From contig NZ_MEJH01000005.1 of assembly GCF_001953635.1 (NCBI RefSeq), positions 1 through 64,000 of the forward strand: a stretch of DNA of 64,000 nt, written 5' to 3'. Position 1 is the first letter of the stretch, and every line of letters starts with the position of its first letter. Positions 8,651-19,207 of this stretch are shown in pieces. A program made the position numbers and the translations under genes. Origin of the DNA: Alteromonas abrolhosensis. Its GTDB lineage: Bacteria > Pseudomonadota > Gammaproteobacteria > Enterobacterales > Alteromonadaceae. Below the pieces are notes generated by a model that was not told the DNA's origin, did no database searches, and worked only from the letters and a program-made list of their open reading frames with translations.

Positions 8651-10450
8651 ATGGAAGGTTATAAAGCTCCACAACGTGACGCCATGTTTGTAACACATGA
8701 GCTACTAAATTATCAAAATCACTATCAAAAGCTAGGTTTCGACGAAGCATCAGAAGACTTGGTGTCGGCGATTTTCGCTGAAGCTGCAAAGTTTTCAGAG
8801 AACGTACTGGCACCCATCAATGCATCAGGCGATGAAGAAGGGTGTAAGTGGGTTGATGGTGAAGTAACAACGCCTAAAGGTTTTAAAGAAGCTTATCAAA
8901 CGTATGTTGAGGGCGGATGGCCAGGAATGTCTCACCCTGAGGAATTTGGCGGTCAGGCATTACCATATTCATTGTCATCTATCATTGCTGAGTGGTTTTC
9001 AGGCGCAAACCATTCTTGGGCGATGTACCCAGGTCTAAGCCAGGGCTGTATGGCAACAATAAAAGCCCATGGCTCTGAATTGCTACAAAAAATGTTCCTT
9101 GAAAAACTGGTTAGCGGTGAGTGGACAGGTACTATGTGTTTGACCGAGGCACACTGCGGTTCAGACCTTGGCATGTTGAAATGTCGCGCGGAACCTCAAG
9201 AAGATGGTACCTACAGCTTAACAGGAACGAAGATTTTTATTTCGGCAGGTGAACACGACTTGTCTGAAAATATCGTACACATTGTGTTAGCTCGATTGCC
9301 AGATGCGCCAGAGGGTACCAAAGGTATTTCACTATTTGTTGTGCCTAAGTTTAACGTGTCTGAAGATGGCGAAAAGCTAGATAGAAACGCAGTAGGATGC
9401 GGAAGCATTGAACATAAAATGGGTATCAAAGCCAGCGCAACCTGCGTGATCAACTTCGATGGCGCAAAAGGTTATTTGATTGGGCCACCAAACCGCGGCC
9501 TAAATTGCATGTTTACGTTCATGAATACCGCACGTATTGGCACTGGTCTAGAAGGCTTGGCATCATCTGAAGCAGCATTCCAAGGTGCGCTTCGCTACGC
9601 AAAAGATCGCATTCAGTTCCGTTCATTAACAGGGCGTAAAAATCCTGATGGCCCAGCTGATCCTATTATTGTGCACCCTGATGTACGTCGTATGCTGTTA
9701 ACGCAGAAAGCGTTCGCGGAAGGCAACCGAGCGCTTGCCGCTTACTGTATGCAGTTAGTTGACGTTACTTTGTATGGTAGCGACGAGGCTGAGAAGCAAC
9801 TTGCGGATGCAAAACTTGCATTCTTAACGCCAATCGTGAAAGCCTTCTTAACTGAAACCGCGCAAGAAGCCACGAGTTACGGTATGCAGGTTTATGGCGG
9901 CCACGGCTTTATCAAAGAATGGGGCATGGAGCAGCTAGCTCGCGATACCCGTATCTGCACCATGTATGAAGGTACTACAGGTATTCAAGCCGTTGACCTA
10001 TTAGGTCGTAAAGTAATGGGCTCTAATGGCGAATTGCTTAATGTGTTTGTCCAAGAAGTGCGCGACTACTGTAATTCATTGCGCGACAACGCTCAGTTTA
10101 GTGCTTGGACTAACGCGCTAAACTCTCACCTTGACGAGTGGCAGCAGATCACTATGGACATCGGTAAGGCAGCAGCATCGAACCCAGATGAAATTGGTGC
10201 AGCGTCTGTCGATTACCTAATGTATTCAGGTTATGTCACCGTTGCTTACTTCTGGCTAAAAATGGCAGTGAAAGCACAAGAACAGCTTGATGCAGGTAGC
10301 ACCGAAACCGAGTTTTATAAGAGTAAAATCTTAACAACGGGCTTCTACTTTGACCGTTTGTTAACCCGTACTCGCTCACTGGTTTCGGCAATGCAATCAG
10401 GCGCAGACAACTTGATGTCTATGCCAGAGAGTATGTTCGCTATCGAGTAA
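8651..10450 (+). CDS. Acyl-CoA dehydrogenase with extended C-terminal domain
   Basis: The product of 599 residues is longer than the usual 380-400 because of a short N-terminal extension and a C-terminal helical domain after about residue 460. The core has CLTEAHCGSDLG (163-174), QVYGGHGFIKEWG (413-425) and the probable base Glu440 in MYEGTTGIQ. It introduces the first double bond into acyl-CoA using FAD. I use ATG 8651, with AGGT eight bases upstream, rather than the TTG at 8645. It is the third gene of the beta-oxidation cluster and is closed by a strong terminator, so the cluster appears self-contained. Chain-length preference is not deducible. Confidence 0.92.
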   Translation: MEGYKAPQRDAMFVTHELLNYQNHYQKLGFDEASEDLVSAIFAEAAKFSENVLAPINASGDEEGCKWVDGEVTTPKGFKEAYQTYVEGGWPGMSHPEEFGGQALPYSLSSIIAEWFSGANHSWAMYPGLSQGCMATIKAHGSELLQKMFLEKLVSGEWTGTMCLTEAHCGSDLGMLKCRAEPQEDGTYSLTGTKIFISAGEHDLSENIVHIVLARLPDAPEGTKGISLFVVPKFNVSEDGEKLDRNAVGCGSIEHKMGIKASATCVINFDGAKGYLIGPPNRGLNCMFTFMNTARIGTGLEGLASSEAAFQGALRYAKDRIQFRSLTGRKNPDGPADPIIVHPDVRRMLLTQKAFAEGNRALAAYCMQLVDVTLYGSDEAEKQLADAKLAFLTPIVKAFLTETAQEATSYGMQVYGGHGFIKEWGMEQLARDTRICTMYEGTTGIQAVDLLGRKVMGSNGELLNVFVQEVRDYCNSLRDNAQFSAWTNALNSHLDEWQQITMDIGKAAASNPDEIGAASVDYLMYSGYVTVAYFWLKMAVKAQEQLDAGSTETEFYKSKILTTGFYFDRLLTRTRSLVSAMQSGADNLMSMPESMFAIE

Positions 10451-10495
10451 CGACATAAAAGTAATACACGTGCGTTACTAAAAGACGTACGAAAG

Positions 10496-10570
10496 GCCGA
10501 GCAAATAATGTAGCCGAGAAAATGATTTAACCAAATAATCATTGGATACGTTATTTTGCTCGGCTTTTTT
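10496..10570 (+). terminator. Terminator of the beta-oxidation cluster
   Basis: GCCGAGCAAA near 10496 pairs with TTTTGCTCGGC ending at 10564, extended by further AT pairs, and is followed by TTTTTT. The loop is large (about 40 bases) and contains a second GCCGAG. Confidence 0.75.
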
Positions 10571-10724
10571 GTTTCTTAAAAAAACATAGAGGAAGCGAGC
10601 ACAGTAATTGTTTCAAAGTACGCGAATGTTGAGGGGGCTCACATTCAATATTTAATCCGAACGCGTCGCATTGGTTACACCGGGAAAAGCCTGAATGGGT
10701 ACAAAAAGAAGCGATAAATTTTAC

Positions 10725-10828
10725 AGGGGCCTAGAAAGGGGTGAGGCCCCTAAAAGGGGCCTCCAGTGCGGCATCCTGCCGCTACCATGTTGAATCGTTA
10801 CATCACATGGTGTGACTATATCTTCTTA
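10725..10828 (-). promoter_or_regulatory. Structured 3' UTR of small-protein paralogue 1 (anti-start element)
   Basis: Read on the minus strand after the stop codon, the UTR has TCACA, then ACCATGTGA (10803-10811 on the plus strand), then TTCAACATGGT (10784-10794). It then has the stem GCGGCA-GGA-TGCCGC (10768-10782) and a GC-rich region. In that region AGGGGCCTC (10743-10751) can pair either with GAGGCCCCT (10755-10763) or with AGGCCCCT (10725-10732). TTCAACATGGT is the exact complement of the start region of its own gene (11220-11230). Upstream of it TAACGA also matches, with a two-base bulge. Paralogues 2 and 3 carry the same layout. Confidence 0.6.
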
Positions 10829-11227
10829 TTAAATTCTGCCGTTAAGCTCTGCTGAGATTGGTGAGCTCTGTAGACCTTGCTCTGCAATCCACGCTTGAAG
10901 TGTTTTGCCGTCTGATTCAGGTTCTGCTAGGTCTTTGCTTGGCATTTTCTTAACTAACAGCGTACCTACTTCAACTGCATTGTTAGTAATAGCAGTACGG
11001 ATTAGGCTTTGACCGTTACAAGAAATACCAGAGTAGTAATCGCGAAGCTTAAGCTTGTAGTCTGATTGAACGCTACGCATTTTCTTGCGAAGTTCGCCTT
11101 TGTCATCGGCTTGAACGATAGTGCAAATATTTGCTAGTGCTTCGTTAATGTCGTTAGCTTGTGCTGCGTTAGAAAAAGCTAAAGTAGATGCTGCAATTAC
11201 TAGAGAAGTTTTAACGATTTTCAACAT
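10829..11227 (-). CDS. Small secreted protein, DUF3718-like, paralogue 1
   Basis: This 132-residue protein has a Sec signal peptide (MLKIVKTSLVIAASTLAFSN, probable cleavage after AQA). The mature domain has CTIVQADDKGELRKKMR, two cysteines (ICTI and ISCNGQSL) and a C-terminal LQAWIAEQGL. I think it resembles the DUF3718 family, whose function is unknown; that assignment is from memory and moderate. It is about 85 percent identical by eye to the tandem neighbour at 11525 and clearly related to the copy at 17743. The periplasmic disulfide-bonded location is inferred. AAGGAA lies just before TTTAACCATG, a leader shared by all three copies. Confidence 0.85.
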   Translation of the reverse strand: MLKIVKTSLVIAASTLAFSNAAQANDINEALANICTIVQADDKGELRKKMRSVQSDYKLKLRDYYSGISCNGQSLIRTAITNNAVEVGTLLVKKMPSKDLAEPESDGKTLQAWIAEQGLQSSPISAELNGRI

Positions 11228-11436
11228 GGTTAAATTCCTTCGGTCGTTGTTATTAAGATTATGTTTGTTCGTTGAGATGCATTAAACCTGAATCTAACTG
11301 ATTGAAAAACATGCTGTAAAATAACATGGTATGCCAAATTATACTTATTGGCAGCCATATGGCTGAGAATGCCAGGTATGTGTGTTTGTGAGGGGGCATT
11401 TACAGAATGGTAGAACGGCAAAAGTACAACGGAAAT

Positions 11437-11524
11437 AAAAAAGGCCCCGTAGCAGTGGGGCCTTTCAGCGCAGCATTTGCTGCAACCATGTTGAATCGAC
11501 TCACATGGTAATGTGAAATAGTGC
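11437..11524 (-). promoter_or_regulatory. Structured 3' UTR of paralogue 2 (anti-start element) with terminator
   Basis: On the minus strand the elements are TTCACAT (11511-11517 on plus), ACCATGTGA (11501-11509) and TTCAACATGGTT (11484-11495). Next come the stem GCAGCA-AA-TGCTGC (11470-11483) and a terminator: AAAGGCCCC, an eight-base loop, and GGGGCCTTTTTT (11437-11466). TTCAACATGGTT is fully complementary to the gene's start region at 11916-11927. The sequence and spacing of the elements match paralogues 1 and 3. Confidence 0.65.
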
Positions 11525-11923
11525 TTAAATCCTGTCGTTAAGCTCAGCTGAAATTGGAGAGCTTTGTAAGCCTTGCTCTGCAATCCACGCTTGTAGTGTT
11601 TTGCCGTCAGCTTCTGGCTCAGAAAGATCTTTACTTGGCATTTTCTTTACAAGCAGTGTGCCTACTTCAACCGCGTTGTTGGTCAATGCTGTACGAATAA
11701 GGCTTTGACCACCACATGTTACGCCAGAGTAATAATCGCGTAGTTTTAGTTTAAAGTCAGACTGTACGCGACGCATTTTTTTACGTAGCTCACCTTTGTC
11801 ATCTGCCTGAACAATAGTGCAGATGTTTGCTAGGGCTTCATTTACATCATTTGCTTGTGCTGCATTTGAAAAAGCTAAGGTTGAAGCTGCGATGACTAGA
11901 GAAGTTTTAACGATTTTCAACAT
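11525..11923 (-). CDS. Small secreted protein, DUF3718-like, paralogue 2
   Basis: This 132-residue tandem copy of the protein at 10829 has the same signal peptide and the same mature layout. Most changes are conservative (CGGQSL for CNGQSL, NDRI for NGRI at the end). The two genes are about 300 bases apart on the same strand. A terminator sits between them (11437-11466), so each is probably an independent transcription unit and not one operon. The leader contains CGAACAAAC about 45 bases before ATG, as in the other two copies, and a GGAAATTTAACC ribosome-binding region. The function is unknown. Confidence 0.85.
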   Translation of the reverse strand: MLKIVKTSLVIAASTLAFSNAAQANDVNEALANICTIVQADDKGELRKKMRRVQSDFKLKLRDYYSGVTCGGQSLIRTALTNNAVEVGTLLVKKMPSKDLSEPEADGKTLQAWIAEQGLQSSPISAELNDRI

Positions 11924-12254
11924 GGTTAAATTTCCTTCGTTGTTAGTTTAATTAATCAGTTCGTTTGTTCGGGATTAATTAAAAAACAACCAAGTCGATT
12001 AAAAAACATTCATTCAAATAACAAGGTATATCAAACAATACGTTATACTAAAGGTGTAAGAGAGATGAAACTCGCTGTAGCCTTTAGTAGTAAAGGGATG
12101 GAGCATACAGTAATGCATCGAGTGGCTAGATCAATAAATCGTCAAATAAAGCATAAAAAAACAGCGGAAAAACTGTTTTTTTAGCTTTTATTGAAGTTAC
12201 TGCGTATGAAAAGTGCGCTAATTTGAGAATCGTTTAACAAGAATAAAAACGAAA
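11924..12254. other. Intergenic region upstream of paralogue 2
   Basis: This 331-base AT-rich region holds the leader and presumed promoter of paralogue 2, transcribed leftward. Its right part contains the terminator of the SorC-type regulator gene (12155-12182). I see no further gene. Confidence 0.5.
12155..12182 (-). terminator. Terminator of the SorC-regulator unit (bidirectional shape)
   Basis: AAAAAAACAG and CTGTTTTTTT flank an eight-base loop. On the minus strand it ends in a T-run, about 70 bases after the regulator stop codon. Confidence 0.7.
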
Positions 12255-13211
12255 TTATGGAAGAACTAATGCCGCTGCTGTGCGCTCTGTTGTAATTAAA
12301 CCATTTAGGAACTTCGAGCGAAGGGCTCCCCTTATTGCTTTCAATTTATTGTCACCCGATGCAACACCTATAACCGGCCTCTCAGGCGTTGCCTTTAACT
12401 TAAAACTGGTCACTCTCTCATTAATATCGCAGTTAATAAGAGCGCCTTCTTCATTAAATATCCAACTTATGATCTCGCCGCTTGCTCCAGACTCTGCAAG
12501 TGTCGCTAAATCATCGTCGCCGATGAACCCATCCTTATATAGCGGAGATACGCTGCCTAAATTGCCGATACCTACAAAGCTGATGTCAGCTTGTTCTGCA
12601 AGCGCGTGAATACGGGAAATGTGCTTTTGCCCTTGCCATATTTCCCTTTCTGATTGGCTTGAAGCAATAACAGGTGTTGGCATAGGGTAGTGTTGTGCCT
12701 TAACTCTGTCGGCTACGTGTACCGCAACGTCGTAGCGCGTGGCTTCGCCATTTTCAGCAATGTTACCAACAAGAGAAACAATTTTATGTTGAGGACAGTG
12801 CAGCATCGACAGTTCATCTGCGCACGCACGAAGTACGCGACCTGTGCCAAAAGCTATCGTTTTGGGGACGTCGGATTTTAACGCTCTTTCTATTGCTGCT
12901 GCACCCGCCTGGCCAAGCCCTCGAGTGGTATTGGGGTCATCATCTACGTTAGGAACAACATCGCAATATGTTAATCCAAATTTTTCTTGGAGCCGTTGTG
13001 CTAATTCCATACATCTAGCGATTGGGTGCTCTAAACGTACTTTTACAAGACCTTCTGACATAGATAACGCTACCAAGCGCTGTGCGCTCTGGCGCGACGT
13101 TTTAAGTGTTTTAGCTATTTCATCTTGCGTTTTCCCGCCAACATAGTACATCCATCCTGCTCTGGCGGCTTCGTCAAGTTTATTGAGTTCGTTCTGCGCT
13201 TTCTTACTCAT
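12255..13211 (-). CDS. SorC/DeoR-type sugar-responsive transcriptional regulator
   Basis: From the start used here (MSKKAQNELNKL) the protein has 318 residues. An N-terminal winged helix-turn-helix (GKTQDEIAKTLKTSRQSAQRLVALSMSEGLVKV) is followed by the SorC sugar-binding domain (CDVVPN, FGTGRVLRA, GIGN, GEIISWIFN, VIGVASGDNKLKAIRGAL). Such proteins bind a sugar phosphate or polyol phosphate and control nearby catabolic genes. I chose ATG 13211 over a start 18 codons upstream because it overlaps the stop of the HAD gene as ATGA, a translational-coupling arrangement. It most likely controls the divergent permease and mannitol dehydrogenase genes. Confidence 0.88.
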   Translation of the reverse strand: MSKKAQNELNKLDEAARAGWMYYVGGKTQDEIAKTLKTSRQSAQRLVALSMSEGLVKVRLEHPIARCMELAQRLQEKFGLTYCDVVPNVDDDPNTTRGLGQAGAAAIERALKSDVPKTIAFGTGRVLRACADELSMLHCPQHKIVSLVGNIAENGEATRYDVAVHVADRVKAQHYPMPTPVIASSQSEREIWQGQKHISRIHALAEQADISFVGIGNLGSVSPLYKDGFIGDDDLATLAESGASGEIISWIFNEEGALINCDINERVTSFKLKATPERPVIGVASGDNKLKAIRGALRSKFLNGLITTERTAAALVLP

Positions 13212-13879
13212 TTTATATTTCTCACGTCGAATATGTTGGGCCAGTAACCGTAAAGCTCGTCCCATGTTTTTATAGTGTGATCAGATGATGTGTTACCACT
13301 GTGTAAGTGTGCGCCACCTGTATAATGTAAATAGTGCATACCCGCACTTTTAGCGGCGGAAATTCCTGGCTGAGAGTCTTCGATAACTAAGCAATTTGCC
13401 GGATCAACGCCCAGGGAGTTTGCAGCGTATAAAAATAAATCGGGCGCTGGCTTTCCTCGTTTTACTAATGAGCGTGTATAAACTCGGCCTTCAAAAAAAT
13501 CATGAAGTCCTGTACGGTTTAGCGCCTTTGCCGTTCTTTCTGGGGAACTGCTGGTCGCGATGCAAAAAGGTATTGTTAGCGCTGAAAGCACAGACTCGAT
13601 TCCAGGTGTTTGCTGAAGAAAGTGCTCGAAGTTTTTGAACAGTAATGTATAGAAGTCTTCTTTCATAGCAGTAGTAAGAGTAAGCATGAAATCTTCTTTT
13701 AACTTAAACTGAACATGTTCCATGCTTTTTCCAAGGAAGTGTTCAATAAAATAGTCCTTTGATAGGGTAATGTTGTAACGAGACAAAATGGTTTGCCACG
13801 TCTCCATCGACAATACTTCGCTATCGATAAGTACGCCATCGCAATCAAAAATTACTAAATCAACGGTCTTTATTTGCAA
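13208..13879 (-). CDS. HAD-superfamily sugar/polyol phosphatase (beta-phosphoglucomutase-like)
   Basis: This 223-residue HAD hydrolase has motif I DCDGVLIDSE (nucleophile in FDCDGV), motif II Ser in CIATSSSPE, a motif III lysine in KRGKPAPDLFL, and motif IV in VIEDSQPGISAAKSAG. Helical cap residues between motifs I and II fit the sugar-phosphatase/beta-phosphoglucomutase group. It is first in a two-gene unit; its TGA overlaps the regulator's ATG. In this polyol locus it could dephosphorylate a polyol or sugar phosphate, or remove a phosphorylated inducer. The actual substrate is unknown. Confidence 0.87.
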   Translation of the reverse strand: MQIKTVDLVIFDCDGVLIDSEVLSMETWQTILSRYNITLSKDYFIEHFLGKSMEHVQFKLKEDFMLTLTTAMKEDFYTLLFKNFEHFLQQTPGIESVLSALTIPFCIATSSSPERTAKALNRTGLHDFFEGRVYTRSLVKRGKPAPDLFLYAANSLGVDPANCLVIEDSQPGISAAKSAGMHYLHYTGGAHLHSGNTSSDHTIKTWDELYGYWPNIFDVRNIK

Positions 13880-14329
13880 GAATCACCTTTCCTTAATTTC
13901 TGTTTTTCACACACTCGCTTTTGTTAGACGACTATTAGACCATCAAAGAATATATCTAAACAGATTGAACATTTGCCTAAGTGTAAGGTAATTGGTGTTA
14001 ATTATTCTACCTAAACGCACCTTTCTCCAGTGCTATGTTCAATATCCCTTCGAATATCTAGCAATTTACATACTCTCGGGAATGTATTTTTTCTATTTTA
14101 GAAACAATTATTTAAATTCTTATAGACGTTTGTGTTTCTTGTTTTAGCACAGTTTTTAAAGTGTTAATGAAGTGGCAATGCGCCAACTTATTTTGTTAAT
14201 GGCTGTTTACAAGAATCAGGGGCTGTGTAAATATTCACGCATAAATGAGATAAATCCCAGGTTGTGAGCAAATGCTCTAAATGGCATTTTAGCGCAAAGG
14301 GAAAACCACCTACAACACGAGATCTGAAG
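13880..14329. promoter_or_regulatory. Divergent control region of the polyol locus
   Basis: These 450 bases separate the leftward HAD-regulator unit from the rightward permease-dehydrogenase unit, so both promoters should be here. Candidate operator sequences are the separated inverted repeat ATTGAACAT (13964-13972) / ATGTTCAAT (14035-14043), a direct repeat TTAGAC at 13924 and 13935, and an imperfect palindrome TGCTCTAAATG/CATTTTAGCGCA at 14273-14296, close to the permease start. I cannot decide which is used by the SorC-type regulator. Confidence 0.4.
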
Positions 14330-16048
14330 ATGAAGTCGACGTCTAGTGATATTGATATTTCGCAAATTAGTGACGAGCAACTCCCTGTCGCTAAACATAA
14401 ATTGAAAGGCTGGAAGCATTTCATGGGTTTGTATGCTGGCGAACATGTCGCCGCAACAGAGTTTGTATTTGGGGCCACTTTCGTTGCACTTGGCGCCACC
14501 ATGATGGATATCTTGTTGGGGTTGCTTATTGGTAATTTACTTGCCGTACTAAGTTGGACTCTCATTACCACACCTATTGCTGTGGAAACCAGATTGAGCC
14601 TTTACTCTTACCTGCAAAAAATTGCGGGAGATTCAATGACCAAGCTCTACAACTGGGCAAATGTGGTGATATTCACTGTTATATCGGCAGCAATGATCAC
14701 CGTGTCTGCCACCGCCGTGCGTTTTGCCCTTAATATTCCTGCCCAGTTGAACTGGTATCCTACAAATTTAGCTTTTGTCGCTGTGGTTCTTGCAGTTGGC
14801 GTTATCGTTGTTTTCGTCGCTATGTATGGTTTCAATGCCGTATCAGACTTCTCCCGTATTTGCGCTCCTTGGCTTTTCACCATGTTTATTTGTGGCCCTC
14901 TAGTGTTAATGCCAGCACTCGCAGAATCTGTAATTGGGCAGACTTTTATCTCATCGTGGAGCGACTTTGTACATATTGGTAGCACATCGGTATGGACGGG
15001 GCTGACTCAAAACGGAGAGCCAGGGATCGGATTACTAGAAGTTATTGGCTTTTCCTGGGCGGCCAATACTATTACACACTTTGGTTTAATTGATATGGCA
15101 TTGCTTCGTTTTGCTAAGCGCAAACGTTATGGACTGTGTACGTCTGCAGGCATGCTATTTGGGCATTACATTGCGTGGATTTCAGCTGGCATTATGGGCG
15201 CGGGGACTGCGGTCATAGTGCAGAAATCAATTGTGGAATTAGACCCAGGTGATGTTGCCTTTCATGCTCTGGGGTTATCGGGCCTTGTCATCGTTATTGT
15301 TGCTGGCTGGACTACAGCAAATGCTAACCTTTATCGAGCTGGTCTTGCTGCCCAAGCTATTTTTAAAGATAAATCTCGCCATAAAACTACCGCCATAGTC
15401 GGCATGGTAACCGTGGCTATTGCTTGTTTTCCCTTTGTATTTACTAAGCTACTTCCTCTTCTTACTTATGCCGGGTTGCTGGTGGTGCCAGTTGGAGCGA
15501 TTGTATTTGCAGAACATACTATTTTTCCTCGTATTGGCTATACACGATATTGGGCTCATTACCAGAGCTTAACGCATAGCACACCAGCCGTAGCGAGTTG
15601 GGGCGTAGGTCTTGCTTTTGGATTCGGGCTTAATGCGTTGAATGTTATGTCATTCTATTATGTTTTCATCCCCACGTGGTTTTTCACCATTGCTGTCTAC
15701 ACAGGGCTAGCCGCTAAATATGGCGCAAAGCGTGAATATCCAGAGCAGGTAGCGCAAGTAAGCGCATTCGATCAGCGAGTAGAAGCACATCAGCAAGCCG
15801 AAGCCGCTAAAACAAAGGAAGATGTAAAGGACAGCCGTGCTTCTTCTACGCTACTACGCATCGTATCTGTAGCGAGTCTGGTTGTTTCTATCGCATTGGC
15901 TTTCAACACGTTTTCTCTTAGTGACACGCTGAGCGCCTACGAGTCTAATCGAGACCTTTTCTTTAACGTCGGGTTTGCGTGCACGGTTATTTATTTCGTT
16001 ACTGCATATTGGGCGATGCGTCGTCATAAAGCATTTCAAAACACATAA
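14330..16048 (+). CDS. NCS1-type permease (nucleobase:cation symporter fold) in a polyol locus
   Basis: From ATG 14330 the protein has 572 residues and about 12 hydrophobic segments, then a hydrophilic loop near 490-520 and two more helices. Early GEHVAATEFVFGATFVALGA, the long hydrophobic helices and DFSRICAPW resemble cytosine/purine permeases of the NCS1 family. It is followed seven bases later by mannitol dehydrogenase and is divergent from a SorC regulator and HAD phosphatase. Import of a polyol is therefore more likely than import of a nucleobase, but this is context inference. The GTG 22 codons upstream lacks a clear SD. The last two helices look like an addition to the usual core. Confidence 0.78.
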   Translation: MKSTSSDIDISQISDEQLPVAKHKLKGWKHFMGLYAGEHVAATEFVFGATFVALGATMMDILLGLLIGNLLAVLSWTLITTPIAVETRLSLYSYLQKIAGDSMTKLYNWANVVIFTVISAAMITVSATAVRFALNIPAQLNWYPTNLAFVAVVLAVGVIVVFVAMYGFNAVSDFSRICAPWLFTMFICGPLVLMPALAESVIGQTFISSWSDFVHIGSTSVWTGLTQNGEPGIGLLEVIGFSWAANTITHFGLIDMALLRFAKRKRYGLCTSAGMLFGHYIAWISAGIMGAGTAVIVQKSIVELDPGDVAFHALGLSGLVIVIVAGWTTANANLYRAGLAAQAIFKDKSRHKTTAIVGMVTVAIACFPFVFTKLLPLLTYAGLLVVPVGAIVFAEHTIFPRIGYTRYWAHYQSLTHSTPAVASWGVGLAFGFGLNALNVMSFYYVFIPTWFFTIAVYTGLAAKYGAKREYPEQVAQVSAFDQRVEAHQQAEAAKTKEDVKDSRASSTLLRIVSVASLVVSIALAFNTFSLSDTLSAYESNRDLFFNVGFACTVIYFVTAYWAMRRHKAFQNT

Positions 16049-16055
16049 GGTTTTT

Positions 16056-17573
16056 ATGAAAACTCAAACACCTATCTTATTGAATAGAGCTAATCTGGCG
16101 AAAATGCCGGCAGATTTTAAGCGGCCTTCTTATAACGTAGAAAATGTTAAAACTGGTATTGTTCACATTGGAGTGGGAGGGTTTCACCGCGCGCACGAAG
16201 CTATGTATGTAGACAGACTCATGGCGAAAACCGGGGATTTGTCCTGGGGAATTTGCGGTGTAGGCCTTCGTGAAAATGACCGGGCCATGAAAAAAGTGCT
16301 CGACGAACAAGATAACCTGTATACCCTGATTGAAAAGTATAAAGATGGTACCCGCAAAGCATCGGTCATCGGTGCTATGACAGGTTTTCTTATGGCGCAG
16401 GATAACCCTCAGGCGGTTATTGATAAGATGGCTGAACCCGAGGTACACATCGTTTCGTTAACCATTACTGAAGGTGGATATAATTTCGACGCGTCTACAG
16501 GGGAATTTATCGCCGCTAACCCAGACGTTATCCATGATATTGAAAACCCGAGAAGCCCTAAATTAGTTTTTGGTTATCTTGTTGCTGCGCTTAAAAAACG
16601 CAAGGAAAATCAGATTAAGCCTTTTACCGTTATGTCATGTGACAACATTCAACACAACGGACAAGTGCTGAAGAAAATGCTGCTTTCTTTCATAGAGTTA
16701 TTCGACACCGCATTAGCTGACTGGGTAAACGAAAACGTAAGTTTCCCAAACTCGATGGTAGATAGAATAACGCCTGCGACGACAGAAGAAGACATCACAA
16801 CGTTAAAATCAAAAGGCGTGGAAGATGGCTGGCCCGTAGTCTGTGAGCCTTTCGAACAGTGGGTTATCGAAGACAGTTTTTGCAATGAAAAACCAAAGTT
16901 TAACCTTGTTGGCGCACAATTTGTGGATGATGTAGCACCTTACGAGAAACTAAAACTTCGCATGCTCAATGCGGGTCACTCTGTACTTGGCCTGGTAGGT
17001 TCGGTAGCTGGACTCGACACAATTCATGAGAGCGTTGATGTAATGCAGCTTAAGCGTTTGCTTTCCGTTTTTATGGAGAAGGAAGTGATGCCAACGCTGG
17101 ATATGGTAGAGGGAATAGATGTTTTTGAGTACAGAGATACATTAATTTCTCGTTTCTCCAACCCGTTTATAAAAGACACGCTCGCGCGAATTTGTCTTGA
17201 AAGCTCGGCAAAATTACCTGTGTTTTTGCTACCAACTGTACGAGATAATTTGGCGAGCGGCAGGAATGTTAGTATAAGTGCTCTAGTTATTGCATGCTGG
17301 GCTTACTATTCCGATAAACACTCTTCCCAAGATGGGAAACCACTTGAAGTCAATGATGTGATAGCCGAGACGCTACACGGTGCGGCGGTCGATAACCACC
17401 TTGATAGTCTCAGCTTCTTAAAACTAGAAGCGGTATTTGGTTCGCTGGTAAACCAAAACCAGTTTACTGTTTGTTATAAAGCGTATGTTGAGCGTCTGTA
17501 TCAGGGTGAACCGGTATTATTGATTTGTGAAGAGGTAGCAAACAACGTACTTGAACTCGCCAAAGCTTGTTAA
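16056..17573 (+). CDS. Mannitol/polyol 2-dehydrogenase (long-chain MDR-type mannitol dehydrogenase family)
   Basis: The 505-residue protein matches the length of long-chain mannitol dehydrogenases, which oxidise D-mannitol or related polyols to ketoses with NAD. It shows the NAD-binding start IVHIGVGGFHRAHEA, the SCDNIQHNG motif, SMVDRITPATT, and the active-site region KLRMLNAGHSVLG, with the catalytic Lys and the Asn/His pair. AAGG precedes ATG 16056 by five bases, and the gene follows the permease closely, so the two form one unit. Mannitol, arabitol or sorbitol are all possible substrates. I leave the gene symbol empty for that reason. Confidence 0.92.
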   Translation: MKTQTPILLNRANLAKMPADFKRPSYNVENVKTGIVHIGVGGFHRAHEAMYVDRLMAKTGDLSWGICGVGLRENDRAMKKVLDEQDNLYTLIEKYKDGTRKASVIGAMTGFLMAQDNPQAVIDKMAEPEVHIVSLTITEGGYNFDASTGEFIAANPDVIHDIENPRSPKLVFGYLVAALKKRKENQIKPFTVMSCDNIQHNGQVLKKMLLSFIELFDTALADWVNENVSFPNSMVDRITPATTEEDITTLKSKGVEDGWPVVCEPFEQWVIEDSFCNEKPKFNLVGAQFVDDVAPYEKLKLRMLNAGHSVLGLVGSVAGLDTIHESVDVMQLKRLLSVFMEKEVMPTLDMVEGIDVFEYRDTLISRFSNPFIKDTLARICLESSAKLPVFLLPTVRDNLASGRNVSISALVIACWAYYSDKHSSQDGKPLEVNDVIAETLHGAAVDNHLDSLSFLKLEAVFGSLVNQNQFTVCYKAYVERLYQGEPVLLICEEVANNVLELAKAC

Positions 17574-17598
17574 GTCGCGTCGTTAATCACTGTGGGTG

Positions 17599-17629
17599 AA
17601 GAGAGTAGGGATGTGCTCTCTTTTTTTTA
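17599..17629 (+). terminator. Terminator of the polyol permease-dehydrogenase unit
   Basis: AGAGAG (17600-17605) pairs with CTCTCT (17616-17621), followed by a run of T. Confidence 0.7.
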
Positions 17630-17654
17630 GTAGTTCAAAATTATTGGGTACCAC

Positions 17655-17742
17655 AAAAGAAAAAAGCGACCCGAGGGTCGCTTTCTAAAGTGCAGATTTC
17701 TCTGCAACCATGTTGAACTGATTCACATGGTGTGAAATTGTC
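17655..17742 (-). promoter_or_regulatory. Structured 3' UTR of paralogue 3 (anti-start element) with terminator
   Basis: On the minus strand, TTCACA (17731-17736 on plus), ACCATGTGAA (17722-17731) and TTCAACATGGTT (17706-17717) come first. Then the stem GCAGA-GAAA-TCTGC with a GNRA-type loop (17692-17705), then a terminator AAAGCGACCC-TC-GGGTCGCTTT with a T/A-rich tail (17655-17684). TTCAACATGGTT is exactly complementary to the gene's start region at 18128-18139. This copy is 6 kb from paralogues 1 and 2, yet keeps the same order of elements. Confidence 0.65.
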
Positions 17743-18135
17743 TTATAGACGGTCGTTGATTACCGCAGCAATAGGGTTGTCTTGTAAACCGTTTTCCGCA
17801 ACCCAAGCTTGAAGTGTTTTACCGTCAGCTTCTGGTGCTTCTAAATCGCTCTTAGGCATTTTCTTTACAAGCAATTCGCCAGCTTCCACAGCATTATTAA
17901 GTAACGCTGTACGAATTAGGCTGTTGCCGCTACAGCTGATACCAGCATAGTAGTCTTTTAGTTTCATGCGATAGTCAGATTCAACTGAACGCATTTTCTT
18001 ACGTAGTTCGCCTTTATCGTCTGCTTGAACGATAGTGCAAATATTCGCTAGTGCTTCGTTAACATCAGCCTGTGCTACGCCCGACACACCTAATGTCGCT
18101 GCAATAACAAGAGAAGTTTTAACAATTTTCAACAT
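17743..18135 (-). CDS. Small secreted protein, DUF3718-like, paralogue 3
   Basis: This 130-residue third member of the family has a signal peptide starting MLKIVKTSLVIAATLGVSG with cleavage probably after AQA. The mature part keeps NEALANICTIVQADDKGELRKKMR, the second cysteine in ISCSGNSLIRTAL, and LQAWVAENGLQ. It is more diverged than the tandem pair but aligns end to end. The leader has CGAACAAACGAACAAAC and ends GGAATTAACC before ATG. It has its own terminator and probably its own promoter. The family-wide leader and 3' UTR suggest shared control. The function is unknown. Confidence 0.85.
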   Translation of the reverse strand: MLKIVKTSLVIAATLGVSGVAQADVNEALANICTIVQADDKGELRKKMRSVESDYRMKLKDYYAGISCSGNSLIRTALLNNAVEAGELLVKKMPKSDLEAPEADGKTLQAWVAENGLQDNPIAAVINDRL

Positions 18136-18262
18136 GGTTAATTCCTCAAGTATTTGTGAGTTTGTTTGTTCGTTTGTTCGAGTGGATTAAACGACAAAAT
18201 GCGGAGCTTGAAAACGTTCTAAGCGATACTTAGGTATGCAGTTTCATAACCAACAACAGGGC

Positions 18263-18288
18263 AAAAAAAAGCGCTCTTAAAGAGCGCT
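18263..18288 (-). terminator. Terminator of the LysR regulator gene
   Basis: On the minus strand AGCGCTCTT pairs with AAGAGCGCT and is followed by eight T. It begins about 17 bases after the LysR stop codon. Confidence 0.8.
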
Positions 18289-18304
18289 ATAGAGGAAAGC
18301 ATTG

Positions 18305-19207
18305 CTAATGAGATTTGTAATTACTGGCCACTTCCATGATTTGCTCGCGCATCCACATATGAGCGTGGTCGTGGTCAGCACTAACGTGCCAGTAAAGAAA
18401 ATATTCTACTGGTGGTAGGTCAAAAGGCACTTCATAAAGAGCAAGGTCGTAATGCTTTGCTAGGTGATACGGCAAGCAAGCGATGAGGTCAGTTTTAACT
18501 ATCGTACTTGGCACGGTTAAAAAATGTTGCCCTCGCATCACTTCTTTGCGTCTTTTACCAATTTTATCCAACGCAATTTCTATTGGTCCTACGCCCGATT
18601 TTCGTTGTGACACATTGATATGTCCTAGTCGAAGGAAAGTGTCTAAATCAAGGCCGTTTTTTAGTGCAGGATGATTTTTTCTTGCTAGCACGACTAACCT
18701 GTCTTGTGCGATTTTTTCTTTACATAGGTGAGGATCGGTAAATGTTGATGCGTCTGAATAAAAGTCCAGTGCCCCTGAAGCCATCGCTGAAACCACTTGG
18801 CTTCTTGGGATCTCGTAGTTAGTAAGTCCGATGTTTGGCGCAAGATTCTGCAGACGTGAAATTAACCGAGGCATAATACTTACCTCTAGCAAATCCCTAC
18901 TAGCAAAATTAAACGATTTTTCAGCAGTTAGCGGATCAAATGTATGGCTTTCTTGAACACTTTTACGCAATAGAGCCAAGGCTTGACGAGCAGGAACAAT
19001 AATATTTTGGGCAACGGGAGTAGGTGTCATACTGTGGCCAGTTCGAACAAACAAAGGGTCGTTTAGCATTTCCCTAAGCCTTGCTAATGAGTTACTCACC
19101 GCAGGTTGGGTGATGCATAAGACATCGGCTGCCTTGGTTAAGCTTCCTGCCGTATAAATGGCGTCGAATACTGCAAAAAGGTTCAAATCGATTCTATTGA
19201 GATTCAT
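18305..19207 (-). CDS. LysR-family transcriptional regulator
   Basis: From ATG 19207 (MNLNRIDLNLFAVF) the protein has 300 residues, the normal LTTR length. The N-terminal winged HTH is clear (GSLTKAADVLCITQPAVSNSLARLREMLNDPLFVRTG), followed by the periplasmic-binding-like effector domain from about residue 90. AAGGA lies six bases before this ATG, which decides against the upstream in-frame start. It is divergent from the MaoC-like hydratase gene, with palindromes in between, so it probably controls that gene and itself. The effector is not predictable. Confidence 0.92.
   Translation of the reverse strand: MNLNRIDLNLFAVFDAIYTAGSLTKAADVLCITQPAVSNSLARLREMLNDPLFVRTGHSMTPTPVAQNIIVPARQALALLRKSVQESHTFDPLTAEKSFNFASRDLLEVSIMPRLISRLQNLAPNIGLTNYEIPRSQVVSAMASGALDFYSDASTFTDPHLCKEKIAQDRLVVLARKNHPALKNGLDLDTFLRLGHINVSQRKSGVGPIEIALDKIGKRRKEVMRGQHFLTVPSTIVKTDLIACLPYHLAKHYDLALYEVPFDLPPVEYFLYWHVSADHDHAHMWMREQIMEVASNYKSH

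Follow-up and report, generated by a model that had tools for sequence, protein, structure and literature searches.

The three genes described here lie on the minus strand of a 64,000-nucleotide stretch of Alteromonas abrolhosensis DNA (contig NZ_MEJH01000005.1, positions 1 to 64,000, hereafter the window) and code for small proteins of the DUF3718 family (PF12514), which all three match with 70.9–77.2 bits against a gathering score of 22.5. The proteins are probably exported, judging by a signal-like N-terminus recognised by reading of the sequence, and the closest named relative of copy 2 comes from Alteromonas portus (96% identity). Read on the coding (minus) strand, the three genes share the 12-mer AACCATGTTGAA in their start regions (11220–11231, 11916–11927 and 18128–18139), and their 3′ untranslated regions (3′ UTRs) carry TTCAACATGGT in copy 1 (10784–10794) and TTCAACATGGTT in copies 2 and 3 (11484–11495 and 17706–17717). 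In all three genes TTCAACATGGT, hereafter the proposed seed, is the exact reverse complement of the start-region 11-mer ACCATGTTGAA. An earlier sequence-only reading of the window had reported these start regions and complements, and its coordinates proved correct when checked against the sequence; copies 1 and 2 also show the pairing it described beyond a two-base bulge, with duplexes of −20.2 and −19.2 kcal/mol.

Within the 64-kb window the 12-mer occurs exactly six times with up to one mismatch, compared with 0.43 occurrences expected from shuffles, and five of its six exact occurrences in the 4.43 Mb genome fall inside the window. The complement was followed in 82 genes, referred to as clade A, which comprise 79 named loci (taken from the best 80 of 105 relatives) and the three window genes. 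The named loci span Alteromonas, Aliiglaciecola, Paraglaciecola, Aestuariibacter, Salinimonas, Marisediminitalea and metagenome-assembled genomes, and were found with peptide-derived DNA patterns including MLKIVKTS, which biases the set towards MLK starts but not towards any 3′ UTR sequence. In 70 of the 82 genes the exact 11-mer is found no more than 300 nt past the stop codon, and four more have it with one mismatch (74/82). Homologues without the segment, or drifting freely in it, had been named in the sequence-only reading as what would speak against it; eight of the 82 genes are without it and the rest deviate by at most one mismatch, which leaves that proposal standing. When the genes are anchored on the 11-mer, whose own positions have 2 bits by construction, the flanking positions mostly stay below 0.5 bit, the exceptions (1.0–1.25 bit) being −5, +12, +13 and +15, the last three corresponding to the beginning of the next stem.

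The longest Watson–Crick complement between a start region and its own 3′ UTR measures 10–14 nt in 74 of the 82 genes. It falls to 5–9 nt in the 105 DUF3718 genes of the order taken for comparison (among the matches listed), which rejects the complement as a general DUF3718 trait outside the MLK-start subfamily, and to 4–9 nt when clade A starts are paired with foreign 3′ UTRs, with a single exception of 11 nt among 600 such pairings. The nine seed–start combinations of the three window copies have energies of −17.6 to −20.2 kcal/mol, the seeds pairing about equally well with the starts of the paralogues and with their own, and duplexes between a seed and its own start average −17.3 over 70 genes, compared with −8.1 in 525 control pairings. 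At the genus level, 59 genomes were searched for ACCATGTTGAA, and pairs were counted in the 17 with complete match lists; these hold 144 matches, among which are 33 facing pairs 420–456 bp apart, at least one per genome, while five further neighbouring matches at 350–650 bp have other orientations. A chance match is ruled out by the window shuffles, the conservation in 70 of the 82 genes and the complement lengths relative to the controls, and the 3′ UTR complement is, judging from these comparisons, under strong selection.

The target side is equally uniform. Codon 2 is the leucine codon TTG in 82/82 genes, compared with 150 of the 1058 other leucine codons of the same genes (14%), codon 3 is AAA in 82/82, and the triplet preceding the ATG is ACC in 79 and GCC in three. 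The GCC variants, as well as ATC found in four seeded genes of genus g5, still pair with GGU via G-U. A wider family sample was obtained by querying 118 genomes with copy 2, which gave a match in 38; 106 of the 113 places were examined (103 and the three window genes), five contig-end or partial places and two others being excluded, with start codons chosen by script. A search of 345 genomes with a gene of the sister clade described below (clade B) followed. In the family sample 14 of the 20 copies without the 3′ element retain ACCATGTTGAAA, and ACC or GCC still precedes ATGTTGAAA in all 12 of the 82 genes whose element is missing or altered. The two near-identical copies of genome G160 appear to use a later ATG as start (MKKFTKAS), and their site ACCATGTTGA lies at −20 to −11, where it reaches into the Shine-Dalgarno sequence, with the 3′ seed retained about 75 nt past the stop codon; since the site precedes the apparent start, the match is not explicable by Met-Leu-Lys coding. 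The old ATG may open a six-codon upstream frame in these copies.

The exact 11-mer occurs 13 times in the genome that contains the window: in three starts, in three seeds and at seven other places, six of which are unlike start sites (four open frames of only 6–37 codons and two lie inside long frames). The seventh (G000:C6:121178, L198:1504-1881) is the start of a DUF3703 gene (PF12487), with ACCATGTTGAA as its context and AAGG upstream; it may be an extra target of the 3′ seed or a chance match. Among the one-mismatch 11-mer sites of the same genome, 17 of 150 were inspected and no likely start site was found among these.

A seed, a stem-loop and a terminator, in this order, are a common arrangement in small RNAs (sRNAs) cut from 3′ UTRs. 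In all 73 sequences with TTCAACATGG a stem-loop (SL2) of varying sequence begins no more than 6 nt from the seed, and a terminator-like second hairpin comes next, with a T-run of at least four in 59 of the 73; the element thus stands in the 3′ UTR together with an intrinsic terminator-like end, the arrangement characteristic of an autoregulatory 3′ UTR sRNA, as far as sequence can tell. In the window copies and many Alteromonas copies a further local hairpin (SL1) is predicted that includes the seed itself, its other, upstream arm, ACCATGTGA, mimicking the start region. A search of window positions 10400–18900 against Rfam 15 with E up to 1 gave one match (17653–17686), below its gathering score, and five clade B loci gave RNase P RNA only, so that a known Rfam RNA family was rejected as an explanation of the element at that threshold. 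The parts of the three window copies are listed in Table 1.

Table 1 Positions of the DUF3718 genes of the window, their start-region targets and their 3′ UTR parts.
Feature	Position	Strand	Basis
Copy 1, DUF3718 gene, 132 aa, signal-like N-terminus	10829..11227	-	open reading frame (ORF); PF12514 E 1.2e-21
Copy 1, target: start region ACCATGTTGAA	11220..11230	-	sequence
Copy 1, 3′ UTR complement TTCAACATGGT, proposed seed, 34 nt past stop	10784..10794	-	sequence, homologue comparison
Copy 1, local hairpin SL1, able to cover the seed (ACCATGT...ACATGGT)	10784..10811	-	fold
Copy 1, stem-loop SL2, immediately 3′ of the seed	10768..10782	-	fold
Copy 1, terminator-like hairpin, weak U-tract	10743..10763	-	fold, T-run scoring
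Copy 2, DUF3718 gene, 132 aa	11525..11923	-	ORF; PF12514 profile
Copy 2, target: start region ACCATGTTGAA	11916..11926	-	sequence
Copy 2, 3′ UTR complement TTCAACATGGT, proposed seed, 29 nt past stop	11485..11495	-	sequence, homologue comparison
Copy 2, stem-loop SL2	11470..11483	-	fold
Copy 2, intrinsic-terminator-like hairpin and U-tract	11440..11465	-	fold, T-run scoring
Copy 3, DUF3718 gene, 130 aa	17743..18135	-	ORF; PF12514 profile
Copy 3, target: start region ACCATGTTGAA	18128..18138	-	sequence
Copy 3, 3′ UTR complement TTCAACATGGT, proposed seed, 25 nt past stop	17707..17717	-	sequence, homologue comparison
Copy 3, stem-loop SL2	17691..17706	-	fold
Copy 3, intrinsic-terminator-like hairpin and U-tract	17663..17684	-	fold, T-run scoring

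With regard to the protein itself, the AlphaFold model of copy 2 is helical (mean predicted local distance difference test score, pLDDT, 81.6), and its best match in the PDB is to ankyrin repeats with an E-value of about 0.1 and a template modelling (TM) score of about 0.5, a hint only.

Clade B includes genes from genera g76, g109, g85, g91, g68 and g103, which form a branch with 100/100 support in a tree from an alignment of 111 rows but few columns. Most clade B genes begin with MKK, and two motifs are found in most leaders of the clade: motif I, CGTCAAGAC(C), at about −40, and motif II, (TTA)AGAGGC, serving as the Shine-Dalgarno sequence. GTCRAGR and GAGGC occur together in 32 of the 41 clade B leaders, and the pattern GTCAAGAC-N8-24-AGAGGC-N5-10-ATG has 12 matches in five g76 genomes versus one for the reversed control. 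Motif I (for example, in L257, L271 and L273) stands close to the inferred 5′ end of the mRNA and is complementary to one half of a 3′ loop. This loop, of the type GGTCTTGACGCCTCTTAATT, tops a hairpin in the 3′ UTR of 16 of the 41 genes examined, a 17th hairpin having come from a later search; its 5′ half is complementary to motif I and its 3′ half to motif II.

Thirteen of the 16 hairpins were aligned, excluding that of genome G173 and two near-duplicates. The loop core TTGACGCCTC is invariant in 13/13, and the stem varies in a concerted manner: 97.1% of the cells pair compared with 80.2% in shuffles and 39–52% in slid controls, the covariation score is 0.650 versus 0.305 in shuffles, and eight of the 11 pairs have changed on both sides, this being the weakest measure (5.7 in shuffles and matched by 26 of 500, the others being matched by 0 or 15 of 500). 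The loops follow the leaders, G-U pairs being allowed: in g85 the loop GATTGTCTTGACG pairs with leaders of the type CGTCRAGACAATC, in g76 and g109 the loop GGTCTTGACG pairs with CGTCAAGACC, and in G173 the loop CGACGCCTCTT pairs with AAGAGGCGTCG of its own leader. The mean energy is −19.8 kcal/mol for loops with their own leaders (16 genes) and −17.3 kcal/mol with paralogue leaders of the same genome (42 pairs), compared with −10.6 kcal/mol for clade A leaders (320, best −18.9) and −13.0 kcal/mol for other DUF3718 leaders (320, best −23.3). A covariance model of the hairpin, applied to the best 150 of about 900–1400 first-look candidates per genome, found 16 places in 10 of the 13 genomes to which it was applied. 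Each of the 16 follows a DUF3718 gene, and a contig end cuts one of them; the model misses the hairpin of G173, which was found by the loop motif. On these comparisons, the sister clade is the strongest evidence for base pairing.

The two types of element were not seen to mix. The A element is present in 24 of the 25 genomes of the family sample with a clade A start, the only exception being G187, and the B loop is present in 11 of the 12 genomes with clade B leaders, the exception being G150. No gene of the family sample has the element of the other clade, and within 300–400 nt past the stop TCAACATGG occurs in 0/41 clade B genes and GACGCCTC in 0/82 clade A genes. Two genomes, G149 and G200, are counted as carriers of the A element on the strength of copies at contig ends, the DUF3718 C-termini of which were recognised by reading; the C-termini were checked for L390, L397 and L402, while L383, L401 and L406 have too little upstream sequence when taken alone. 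Copies with the 3′ element stand at contig ends in G149, G200 and G167 (L383, L390, L397, L401, L402, L406 and L380), which suggests that near-identical multicopy genes break the assemblies and that copy numbers may be underestimated.

Given the observed complement, its conservation, the 3′-end anatomy read from sequence and predicted folds, and the matching pair of different sequence in the sister clade, it is quite probable that the 3′ UTR acts as an antisense to the initiation region of its own mRNA and those of its paralogues, most likely as a trans-acting sRNA providing feedback. The 3′ end of the mRNA would be cut off to give an sRNA about 70 nt long, consisting of the seed UUCAACAUGGU, SL2 and the terminator hairpin, and would pair with ACCAUGUUGAA across the start codon, blocking ribosome entry. 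In this way all DUF3718 genes together would be limited in their output in proportion to their own transcription, which amounts to negative feedback with cross-talk. Initiation should be blocked whether the pairing covers the start codon, as in clade A, or the Shine-Dalgarno sequence, as in clade B; processing, the help of Hfq or ProQ, repression rather than activation, and action in trans rather than in cis are what we infer from this arrangement.

The sequence-only reading had offered two forms of such control, a fold-back of the 3′ end onto its own start and a small RNA released to act in trans, and the comparative evidence bears out the pairing with the start regions and the strong selection on the complement, which both share. 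With control purely in cis, the uncut mRNA would fold its 3′ end onto its own start, perhaps giving an RNase III substrate as in icaR, with no free sRNA; the same complement would serve, the sites are just 420–456 bp apart in the 33 pairs, and a genome in which a single gene was found, such as G121, has both the start site and the 3′ element. Nevertheless, we consider this form rather unlikely, as the site is kept in 14 of 20 copies that have no 3′ element of their own and the window seeds fit the paralogue starts about as well as their own. In clade B the order of the leader sites is reversed relative to that of the loop halves, so one antiparallel, intramolecular duplex cannot use both; this favours pairing with a single site at once or the involvement of two RNA molecules. 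Long-distance cis pairing was also excluded with a mutant by the authors of the work on OppZ, a 3′ UTR-derived sRNA (PMC7398697). Of the two forms, the released trans-acting sRNA appears to fit better, since element-less copies mostly keep the site, the seeds fit the paralogues and the anatomy matches that of an sRNA derived from a 3′ UTR.

The pairing might instead be stabilising or activating, with the 5′–3′ duplex or SL1 and SL2 protecting the mRNA end and the match to the start serving stability or circularisation. SL1 and SL2 are indeed predicted in the window copies, and one clade B site probably lies near the 5′ end of the leader. This explanation is nonetheless quite improbable, given that the pairing covers the start codon or the Shine-Dalgarno sequence, where it should hinder ribosomes, and that the antisense letters are constant while the sequences of SL2 and the terminator vary.

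A number of observations weigh against feedback by a trans-acting sRNA. At the tail, the energies of control and real duplexes overlap (best control −18.2 kcal/mol in clade A and −23.3 kcal/mol in clade B). In one seeded gene CCC precedes the ATG, a plain mismatch, and the altered seeds of L075, L078, L081 and L091 are plain mismatches as well. Val5 is GTT in 82/82 genes and lies outside the 11-mer (in copy 2 at 11909–11911 on the minus strand), so the conservation on the start side does not come from a single cause. G187 retains GCCATGTTGAAA, and no seed was found by a DUF3718 gene in this genome. No T-run of four was scored in copy 1 of the window and 13 other sequences, in four of which the T-run falls inside the scored stem, and RNAalifold found zero consensus pairs in the MAFFT alignment of clade A, probably because loop lengths vary; the clade A anatomy given above was taken from single-sequence folds. 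The predicted local hairpin, in which five or more nucleotides of the seed can pair with bases upstream of it in 58 of the 73 sequences, would compete with the pairing of seed and target. Finally, no compensatory double change was seen within clade A, where the pair is frozen.

The last two points are also what might recommend a by-product, that is, a chance ancestral complement kept for some other reason, for example as a processing site or a site for an RNA-binding protein. The seed of some Aestuariibacter copies, however, stands 3–7 nt past the stop codon, which leaves no space in the 3′ UTR for the hairpin arm, and keeps the 11-mer, hence it is not the local hairpin that preserves it; and clade B, on its own branch, carries another element, which in turn matches the leaders of that clade by complementarity. 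A by-product is therefore very improbable. It is scarcely credible that the short inverted repeats around the coding region, 420–456 bp apart in the 33 pairs from 17 genus genomes, act at the DNA level as a protein-binding or recombination (inversion) site, since a Shine-Dalgarno-like motif at −20 to −4 marks the leader rather than the terminator side in 82/82 genes, with no flipped copy seen, and the clade B element is an RNA-like hairpin with a covarying stem and a loop matching two separate leader motifs.

The principle of such control has been described, contrary to the statement in the sequence-only reading that no description of this arrangement was known. According to the report cited above, RNase E processing of 3′ UTRs yields OppZ and CarZ of Vibrio cholerae, which repress the translation of their own transcripts (PMC7398697), and a 2022 review calls them the first sRNAs to control their own expression in such a way (PMC9438474). 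In Staphylococcus aureus, the 3′ UTR of icaR pairs with its own Shine-Dalgarno region and yields an RNase III substrate (PMC3868564). Because of these precedents the arrangement cannot be called wholly undescribed.

The DUF3718 element resembles OppZ and CarZ in its 3′ UTR origin, its complementarity to an initiation region in the same transcript and the proposed negative feedback. Unlike them, DUF3718 genes are single genes present in several paralogues with one common seed, each of which would be able to act on all; the seed spans the start codon, and the seed of the sister clade is unrelated. With icaR it shares a 3′ UTR motif complementary to its own initiation region, which in clade B includes pairing with the Shine-Dalgarno sequence, but icaR is one gene acting on its own mRNA, whereas the DUF3718 genes form a family, have terminator-like 3′ ends and keep the site in most element-less copies. 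A short pairing RNA from an mRNA 3′ end is also what 3′ end-derived sRNAs generally provide (PMC9438474). None of the papers in the library searched names DUF3718, and in the literature on autoregulatory 3′ UTR sRNAs, icaR-like pairing and Alteromonas sRNAs the gene family is absent from the titles and the beginnings of the abstracts of the top-ranked papers. To judge from the literature search, the family-wide form represents a new variant, in which the copies have a start-codon seed in common and the sister clade has a second, different pair.

A tentative but serious possibility is that the DUF3718 family of the Alteromonadaceae is self-limiting, each element-bearing copy making an antisense RNA that represses all copies, with the output buffered in this way against copy number. 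Element and target would have changed as a matched set, with a start-codon seed in clade A and a hairpin loop in clade B, one stretch of which, about 18–20 nt long, is complementary to two separate leader sites. Few cases of autoregulation by an RNA from a 3′ UTR are known (OppZ, CarZ and icaR), and DUF3718, if the proposal is true, would be a case traceable across many genera, in which natural variants, with or without the element, with one or many copies and with two unrelated pairings, make action in cis or in trans and the buffering of gene dosage testable. It would also give a first handle on DUF3718.

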